NCBI GenBank assembly: GCA_002840535.1
Contig: PHBH01000019.1
Span: 62,001 to 126,000, forward strand
Direction of reading: 5' to 3'
Source of the DNA: Deltaproteobacteria bacterium HGW-Deltaproteobacteria-15
GTDB lineage: Bacteria; Desulfobacterota; DSM-4660; Desulfatiglandales; HGW-15
Length of the DNA: 64,000 nt
Positions within the stretch are counted from its first letter, which is position 1. Each line of letters begins with the position of its first letter. The notes under the pieces were generated by a model, which was not told the DNA's origin, did not search any database, and saw nothing but the letters and a program-made list of their open reading frames with translations. Shown one piece after another: positions 24,046 through 26,508 of the stretch. The translations under genes and the position numbers were made by a program.

Positions 24046-25947
24046 CTATTTCTTTCGCAGCACCCTTTTGTCCCCGACCCTCACCGTAACCTGAGTGATG
24101 TCGAAATACTCGAGAAGGGGAATGGTGTATTTCCTGGAGACATTCGTCATCTCCTTGAACTGCGGAGTGTCGATCTCCCCCTTCTCCCTCAGGTGCTCAA
24201 TCAGCCTGCTTCTGAGTTCTGCGAGCGCATCCCGGTGGAAAAAGAGATCCTCCTTGACCTTGATGAGGACCCCCTCCTTGAGCATGACCTGGAGCACATC
24301 AGGACCCCCGCCCGCAAACTCATCCTTGATCTCCTTGAAGTACGGGGGCTGAAGACCGCCCTTCAGATAAATCTCCTCGATGCGTCGACGCACCTGCTGC
24401 TGATCCGCGGCCAGAGTAACCTTGTGGCTCCCCAGTCTCAGGGTCTCCTTCTCCTGGACGACCACCCCCTCGTTTGTGAGCTGGCTTATCAGAAACTGAA
24501 AGAGCTTCGGATTGCGTAATCCGGCTGTTCGGGACCGGAGCTCCTCCTTGTGAAACCCCTCCCTCAGAGGATTCTCCCGATGATAGCGCTCGAGGGTGGA
24601 GGTGATCTCATCTCTCGCCGCCTGCAGGTACTCAGAATGGATGAGACCCCCTTTCTCCCTGTCATAGAGGATCACCTTCTTCTGCGCCAGAAGTTTCTTC
24701 AAAACCTCGTCAAGCCGCTTCCTGCTCGTGTTGGTCAGGAAAGGAAGAGCGGACTGTTCCATTCCCCTGAACCGCCCCGTATGGACGAACTGTTCCGTGA
24801 TTTCGTTCAAGTCTCCCCGGTTGAGTGTTTTCAACTCGGAGAGGGACTTCTCCGCTCTCCGCTTTCGCCTTTCGGGAAGGGCATTCAACACCTCCCCGCC
24901 CCCGATTGCCCTCACAGGTGAATAGCTCCTGATCACATACCGGTCGCGCGCCAGAAGCAGAGTGGGTTTCTCGAGCCTGATCTGGGCGAAGCAGGTCTCG
25001 CCAGGGTTCAGTTCGTCCCTGTCCAGGAGGAGGATGGTAGAGATGATTTCCGAGGTCCCGGTGTGAAACCTTACTTTTGCTCTGTGTTTCAGTTTTCGCG
25101 GTGCGCTCTTGAGCAGATCGAGGGTCACGTCCGCCAGTTGAGTCGCCCTCAGGGAATCCTTTGCGGCAAGCACATCCCCCCTCTCGATCTCCGCCTTTTC
25201 CACTCCCTGAAGATTGATGGCGGTCCGAAGCCCTGCGCTCACCCTCGTAACCTCACGGTTATGGACCTGGATACCCCTGATCTTGGATGTGACATCCTTT
25301 GGGTAGATTGTGGCCTCTTCTCCCAGGTCGATCTGGCCCGATATTGTTGTCCCGGTGACGACCGTACCGAATCCCTTCATGGTAAAAACGCGGTCTATGG
25401 GGAGACGAAAGAAGCTACCCGTGTCCCTTTCCGCCACCCCCTTGACCAGGTTGTCCAGGGTCTTCAGAAGCTCGTCAATCCCGCGGCCTGTGGTCGAGGA
25501 GACCTCGATCACGGGTGCGCCGGCCAGAAAGGTGCCGGTAAGGAAATTGGAGACGTCCTCCTTGACGAGCTCGAGCCAGTCGGAGTCCACGAGATCCACT
25601 TTGGTCAGGATCACCAGCCCGCTTCTGACCCTCAGGAGCTGGCAGATTTCAAGATGCTCTCTGGTCTGGGGCATGACCCCTTCGTCGGCTGCTATGACGA
25701 GCGCCACGAGATCGATGCCGGTCGCGCCCGCAACCATGTTCTTTACGAACTTCTCATGCCCGGGTACGTCCACAATGCCCAACATCTGGCCTCCTGGAAG
25801 CTCCAGATGCGCGAAGCCCAGCTCAATGGTGATGCCGCGCGCCTTCTCTTCCTTGAGCCTGTCAGTGTCTATGCCGGTAAGAGCTCTGACCAGTGTTGTC
25901 TTACCGTGATCGATGTGGCCGGCCGTGCCGAGAATGATCTGTTTCAT
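24046..25947 (-). CDS. selB: selenocysteine-specific translation elongation factor SelB
   Basis: [74 protein letters not shown]-terminal winged-helix region. Confidence 0.96.
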
Positions 25948-26132
25948 GAGCTACTCACAAGAGTTGATGCATGGATGCAGGATACAGGACGCACGATCAA
26001 CGGCAAAGAATTGCATGTACGGCAGTTGCAGAAATCAGAGACCTTCGGATGCCTTTCACTCCTGGACCAAGAACCGTTCGTCACTGGCGTTCTCACCTCA
26101 TGCATCCTGTGTCCCTGGACCCTGCGTCTCAG

Positions 26133-26165
26133 AAATAAAAAGGCAGCCGTTTGTGAGCGGCTGCC
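26133..26165 (-). terminator. Rho-independent terminator downstream of tRNA-Asn
   Basis: Minus strand GGCAGCCG-ctcacaaa-CGGCTGCC followed by TTTTTATTT. Confidence 0.85.
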
Positions 26166-26176
26166 TCATTTCCTTC

Positions 26177-26508
26177 TGGCTCCCCGGGACGGACTCGAAC
26201 CGCCGACCAAGTGGTTACAAGTGCCCTGATATTTCTATCAGGCTTGGACTATCTCATCACCCGTCCCCAATTTCGGGGCTGAGGGTGTCGGGCGCTTCCC
26301 CCGATTTGTCACCGGGGTACGAGCCGAAGCTCTAGTCTCTGCACCTTCCCTGAAAAACATTCCAGGGCTTGGCTCAGGATTACCATTCTCCACATCGCGT
26401 GGGGGGCAGGCTTCCCTGAATTCACCCGATTTTTCAACCACGATTTCTCGTGGAAGCTGCAGTTCCCTCTTCCACAGCCACCCGCTCTACCTGCTGAGCT
26501 ACCGGGGA
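26177..26508 (-). tRNA. tRNA-Asn(GUU), CCA encoded, split by a group I intron
   Basis: Joined exons (26508..26474 + 26217..26177): TCCCCGGTAGCTCAGCAGGTAGAGCGGGTGGCTGT/TAACCACTTGGTCGGCGGTTCGAGTCCGTCCCGGGGAGCCA = 76-nt cloverleaf with 7-bp acceptor, GGTGG/CCACT anticodon stem, loop CTGTTAA. Confidence 0.93.
26218..26473 (-). ncRNA. group I (IC3-like) self-splicing intron inside the tRNA-Asn anticodon, no ORF
   Basis: 5' exon ends in U, intron ends in G; P1 = exon GCUGU with intron GCAGC (U.G at splice site); P2 CCACGA-GAAA-UCGUGG; core AAUCCUGAGCCAAGCC, GGUGCAGAGACUA and GAUAGUCC (P7 GACUA/UAGUC); P9 CCUGAU-agaaau-AUCAGG. Confidence 0.92.

Follow-up and report, generated by a model that had tools for sequence, protein, structure and literature searches.

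A group I intron between anticodon positions 35 and 36 of a bacterial tRNA-Asn(GUU) gene belongs to a widespread tRNA-Asn-specific lineage

The window, a 64-kb stretch of DNA from an uncultured bacterium, carries on its minus strand a tRNA-Asn(GUU) gene that is interrupted inside the anticodon, between U35 and U36 (Table 1). The insert starts with GGAAGA and ends with CACTTG (minus strand, 26473..26218), and the splice register is fixed because the base of the insert that follows U35 is not T. When the exons (26508..26474 and 26217..26177) were joined, ARAGORN called a tRNA-Asn(gtt) with 7/7 acceptor pairs, 5/5 anticodon-stem pairs and an encoded CCA; in the unspliced window it found no tRNA. 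A previous sequence-only reading had proposed that two halves form a canonical 76-nt tRNA-Asn(GUU) around a 256-nt insert between positions 35 and 36, and both the tRNA and these boundaries were borne out on the minus strand, although the coordinates it gave, 26177-26508, describe the whole split gene and not the intron, which occupies 26218-26473. In an Rfam cmscan of the whole window, RF00028 (Intron_gpI) was the sole match at gathering level, covering the full model (1-253) with 80.3 bits (E=8.7e-19, gathering score 50). The group I identity proposed earlier thus held in a covariance search, and the hallmarks listed for it, namely P1 (GCUGU/GCAGC with a U.G pair), a GAAA loop on P2, P7 (GACTA/TAGTC) and the terminal G, are all present.

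Table 1. Features of the split tRNA-Asn(GUU) locus (positions in the window) and viral contigs with the same split gene.
Feature	Position	Strand	Details and basis
5' exon of tRNA-Asn(GUU), positions 1-35, up to anticodon U35	26474..26508	-	35 nt, ends ...GGTGGCTGT
Group I intron, terminal G at 26218	26218..26473	-	256 nt; RF00028 80.3 bits; intronless orthologues
3' exon of tRNA-Asn(GUU), U36 to encoded CCA	26177..26217	-	41 nt, TAACCACTTGG...GGGGAGCCA
Internal guide sequence GCAGC, partner of GCUGU in the 5' exon (P1, U.G at splice site)	26456..26460	-	invariant in 40 aligned introns, in rows trimmed to begin at GCAG
P2 stem-loop, GAAA loop	26438..26453	-	covarying pairs 6/6
P3 5' strand UCGGGUG	26423..26429	-	sequence and 40-intron alignment
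P7 5' strand GACUA	26333..26337	-	invariant in 40 introns
First extra hairpin GAGC-UUCG-GCUC, then GUA (P7.1-like)	26321..26332	-	absent in tRNA-Leu/fMet/Arg introns
Second extra hairpin CCCCG...CGGGG (P7.2-like)	26299..26317	-	sequence
P3 3' strand CGCCCGA	26288..26294	-	sequence and 40-intron alignment
P8 stem-loop	26258..26287	-	sequence and 40-intron alignment
P7 3' strand UAGUC	26247..26251	-	invariant in 40 introns
P9 stem-loop with GAAA	26225..26242	-	covarying pairs 7/7
selB (selenocysteine elongation factor), conserved neighbour	24046..25947	-	ORF; orthologues; named from reading the protein
IMG/VR contigs with split tRNA-Asn	L241-L243, L245-L248, L252, L259, L261, L262, L265, L267		

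The fold of the intron was analysed in an alignment of 40 intron cores (A1), from which RNAalifold derived 47 pairs, 34 of them with compensatory changes; P7 was added to give the 50 pairs used for counting. Standard pairs made up 97.3% of 1998 pair cells, compensatory change was seen in 34/50 pairs and 433 cells were altered on both sides. The covariation score was 0.619, as compared to 0.173 after shuffling and 0.06-0.10 (maximum 0.098) after sliding the structure; since the structure came from the same alignment it has an advantage in the slide control, yet the difference is very large. Among these relatives strong covariation was found in P2, P3, P4, P6, P8, P9 and a P9.0-like pairing, and the window intron contains the pseudoknotted P3/P7 core together with P4-P6 and P8. 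P7 is invariant and paired in all introns and therefore gives no covariation itself. P1 consists across the relatives of CUGU/GCAG plus position 31; no covariation was detected between position 31 and the guide sequence, as A31 or C31 usually lacks a facing complement, and no P10 pairing is obvious in the window intron. The 5' splice site carries the U.G wobble and the intron ends in G at 26218; because the search pattern described below demanded this terminal G, its invariance among the loci found is not independent evidence.

A 36-nt segment of the window intron, located between P7 and P3, folds into two hairpins. By a simple rule, the four-pair hairpin followed by GUA was recognized in 38/96 introns and another conserved extension (UGAG...AAUAA) in 26/96, the remainder having neither or being not assignable.

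A genome-wide tRNA model search yielded 44 tRNA genes, and the anticodons called by ARAGORN span nearly all amino acids. No tRNA-Asn was among the 44, nor did a pattern for the intact gene match the genome, which answers the question of a second, intronless tRNA-Asn: the split locus is the only detectable tRNA-Asn gene of this assembly. As tRNA-Ile(GAU) and tRNA-Ala(UGC) were likewise not found in the assembly (106 contigs), a repeat-borne, unassembled tRNA-Asn is possible but not indicated. On another contig of the same genome (C99, L041 1500-1583) a gene for a tRNA with a long variable arm, whose UUA anticodon would decode the stop codon UAA, adjoins an odd tRNA-Ser(GCU) and may be a suppressor tRNA.

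In the window's order the tRNA-Asn gene is usually located close to selB, which marks the orthologous locus. The selB-linked gene is uninterrupted in two members of the window's family (G010 and G013) and in G059, and interrupted at one and the same nucleotide in the window, in G011 of the same family and in G006, G015 and G036; in G026 the tRNA-Asn gene is divided over two contigs. Presence and absence at the orthologous site are thus clean among relatives, as expected of a homing intron. G059 contains, besides the intact selB-linked gene, an intron-bearing tRNA-Asn (contigs C243 and C285); the latter lies on a short contig on which no selB was found, and either two copies or a mixed bin would explain it. 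In the window (24046-26508) selB and tRNA-Asn are on the same strand and in the relatives examined they are divergent, which suggests a small inversion.

GTDB genome contigs were screened with a DNA pattern made up of P7, P9, the terminal G and the 3' half of tRNA-Asn, which matched at least 112 stretches. Loci were retained only if a tRNA-Asn could be rejoined, those without a 5' half being dropped, and L123, L136, L141 and L166 were rejected as chance matches to ordinary tRNAs. In at least 94 loci, four of them from relatives, joining the exons restores tRNA-Asn(GUU), and the boundaries read TGT|...G|TAA. This architecture is beyond chance, because the same nucleotide is split in at least about 90 other genome contigs and a control pattern read backwards had no match in 395 and 192 sampled genomes. 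In these two samples, the window's phylum and one CPR group, the pattern itself was found in at least 5/395 and at least 27/192 genomes, both being minimum values given the strictness of the pattern. RF00028 matched in 30/30 genomes with pattern-found loci and exceeded the Rfam cut-off in 29/30. Carriers among the matches listed include CPR groups, Omnitrophota, Nitrospirota, Cyanobacteriota, Elusimicrobiota, Acidobacteriota, Planctomycetota, Rokuibacteriota, Stahlbacteria, one Bacteroidetes bin and Pacearchaeota. The majority are metagenome bins, and individual taxon assignments may therefore be wrong. The named record nearest to the window among the matches listed, a Deltaproteobacteria bin (L163), has the intron core of G011. 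Plasmids gave no match. The window intron is therefore no peculiarity of one genome but belongs to a tRNA-Asn-specific lineage that is very widespread.

At three Pacearchaeota loci (L077, L079, L185) a group I intron interrupts tRNA-Asn between positions 35 and 36, in 2/3 with an HNH ORF or its remnant. These genes differ from the bacterial ones in their G1-C72 acceptor pair and in lacking an encoded CCA, and their contigs contain ordinary cellular genes, which makes simple bacterial contamination an unlikely explanation. In addition, tRNA-Asn is split at the same site in 13 IMG/VR contigs of 11-543 kb, several of them above 250 kb, and large phages are possible carriers of the intron. Similar introns were seen in IMG/VR contigs in apparent tRNA-Lys(UUU) (L249, L251, L258) and in an apparent tRNA-Thr(UGU) (L255). 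In Klebsiella phage Muenster (L269 1452-1757) a group I intron (104.1 bits) splits an unannotated tRNA with the anticodon CAU.

The sequence-only reading had noted the lack of a homing endonuclease ORF. For the window copy this is correct, as no such gene was found in its intron, but it does not extend to relatives: G006, G015, G026 and others have an HNH ORF. The P1 loop of about two dozen introns contains an ORF in which the motifs CxxC...FHH...CANCHRE are conserved and whose frame continues through the guide sequence. Pfam and NCBIfam barely recognize the protein (PF01844, E=0.0034, under the cut-off), for which reason PHROGs was chosen; there 11/11 aligned proteins matched HNH endonuclease families (best E 7.7e-32). 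Something similar is contained in 414 phage records, and a PDB profile search gave weak matches only. The ORF is kept in G006, frameshifted near its start in G015 and absent from the window and G011, while G059 and L102 have remnants consisting of its ends. Two ACTG repeats flank the ORF in G006, whereas the window has GAACTGCAGC with a single ACTG, the product expected of a deletion between the repeats; by this comparison the gene was apparently deleted, and the window copy seems to descend by deletion from an intron that formerly carried an HNH endonuclease gene.

The intron tree, whose bootstrap values are rough, is in conflict with host taxonomy. The introns of the window's order need three changes. 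The window clade lies near introns of Aminicenantes/Acidobacteriota, and G036, of the same order, pairs with a Thermodesulfovibrionia intron (96/97). The archaeal copies nest with those of Omnitrophota (98/87), the cyanobacterial copies form one group and the CPR copies cluster.

These results give us high confidence in a self-splicing, formerly homing and horizontally spread group I lineage that is specific to the tRNA-Asn anticodon loop. The window intron is real and very probably functional, and in structure it is a variant of the tRNA introns already known. For splicing in the cell, for the activity and target of the endonuclease and for the direction of transfer, we infer the following course. 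Upon folding of the precursor, GCUGU of the 5' anticodon arm would pair with the guide GCAGC to form P1. A free guanosine bound in P7 would cleave after U35; attack by U35 at the bond following the terminal G would then ligate U35 and U36, so that the anticodon again reads GUU. The lineage would home to the tRNA-Asn anticodon loop by means of the HNH endonuclease encoded in the P1 loop, and the compact window copy, with this gene deleted, would now be maintained by descent.

That the insert is instead a protein-spliced tRNA intron of the archaeal or eukaryotic type, or an unrelated insertion resembling group I by chance, has a negligible probability. The anticodon loop is indeed the site of many tRNA introns in other domains, but archaeal and eukaryotic ones are usually located at 37/38 and shorter than 100 nt (PMC4033280), and the full-length Intron_gpI match and the strong covariation of P2, P3, P4, P6, P8, P9 and the P9.0-like pairing speak against both readings. 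The intron might also splice poorly or depend on host proteins, or the locus might be a dying pseudogene with an unassembled tRNA-Asn serving the cell. Copies may be missing from an assembly without at least two tRNAs usual in rRNA operons, and the split and intact genes of G059 lie on different contigs. We nevertheless regard this as very improbable in view of the perfect exons, the intact ribozyme core and the compensatory changes across relatives; moreover, no second copy came up in the tRNA search or with the intact-gene pattern, and in the family relative G011 the selB-linked gene has likewise stayed split.

A further alternative concerns history and not function: the lineage could be old and vertically inherited with many losses. 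The single cyanobacterial group and the clustering of the CPR copies would agree with this. It is an unlikely account of a strict pattern present in only 5/395 genomes of the window's phylum (a lower bound), of two unrelated intron types within one order and of archaeal copies nested with Omnitrophota, and the HNH genes within the introns likewise speak for spread by homing.

Reviews name tRNA-Leu, Arg, Ile and fMet as hosts of bacterial group I introns. The earlier suspicion of an unusual host holds up: the open-access literature searched names no tRNA-Asn group I host, and none is given in the reviews and tool papers PMC3984707, PMC8450103, PMC4033280, PMC11835236, PMC5733544 and PMC6784885. 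tRNA-Asn 35/36 is therefore likely to be a new host gene and site. We consider it rather probable that this is a large unreported lineage at one tRNA-Asn(GUU) anticodon nucleotide, with an IC3-like core, IA-like P7.1/P7.2 and a dedicated HNH protein, which crosses phyla and the bacteria/archaea divide and possibly resides on large phages. The comparator loci also included tRNA-fMet-like introns in Omnitrophota, Nitrospirota and Planctomycetes bins (L224, L225, L228, L230), outside the cyanobacterial hosts named in the literature examined, and a tmRNA-associated intron was seen in a Clostridia bin (L231). A generic search for split tRNAs in other hosts yielded little of use.

Since standard tRNA finders miss split genes, a 'missing' tRNA-Asn can be an annotation artefact and not a real loss, which concerns many CPR, Omnitrophota or Nitrospira genomes. 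Because bacteria, archaea and large viral contigs share one insertion site, in some cases with the endonuclease and in others lacking it, intron gain, endonuclease loss and inter-domain transfer become directly testable.

All 39 archaeal group I introns of a 2018 survey were in rRNA genes (Nawrocki et al. 2018, PMC6125680); that set and ours both include DPANN genomes, but the host here is tRNA-Asn. The introns of Lak megaphages share with the viral copies their location in tRNA genes of very large phages; the main text of that study names tRNA-Tyr(GTA) and tRNA-Thr(TGT), calls the introns enigmatic and makes no mention of tRNA-Asn (PMC6784885).

With the group IC3-type introns of tRNA-Leu(UAA), fMet and Arg(CCU), found in cyanobacteria, proteobacteria and plastids, the window intron has in common the insertion in the anticodon loop, the short size, the U.G pair in P1, the core blocks AAUCCUGAGCC and GGUGCAGAGACUA and, from alignment A1 and the comparators, the absence of a P5abc domain; it differs in host tRNA and site (Asn, 35/36). 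The trnL-like core of the sequence-only reading is accordingly right for the sequence blocks but does not account for the two added hairpins: the P7-P3 segment is about 1 nt in seven tRNA-Leu/fMet/Arg comparators (L221, L222, L224, L225, L228, L229, L230; host tRNAs assigned by eye from flanking sequence), some of which share genomes with tRNA-Asn introns, in place of the longer segment of the window. P7.1/P7.2 hairpins at this site mark group IA introns, the type of phages and protein genes, although P4, J4/5, P6 and P9 of the tRNA-Asn intron follow the tRNA-intron type. The first hairpin of one tRNA-Asn intron (L142, GACTATTCCGTAAGGAAGTAC) is almost letter for letter the one in a group I intron (L236, GACTATTCCGCAAGGAAGTAC) that lies outside tRNA genes in the genome of a relative of the window and is presumably of the IA subgroup. 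Given this likeness and the IA-like hairpins, a mosaic of a tRNA-type core and IA-like hairpins is plausible, convergent gain of the hairpins being a possible alternative. The extra hairpins provide a natural bridge between subgroups of introns ordinarily held separate.
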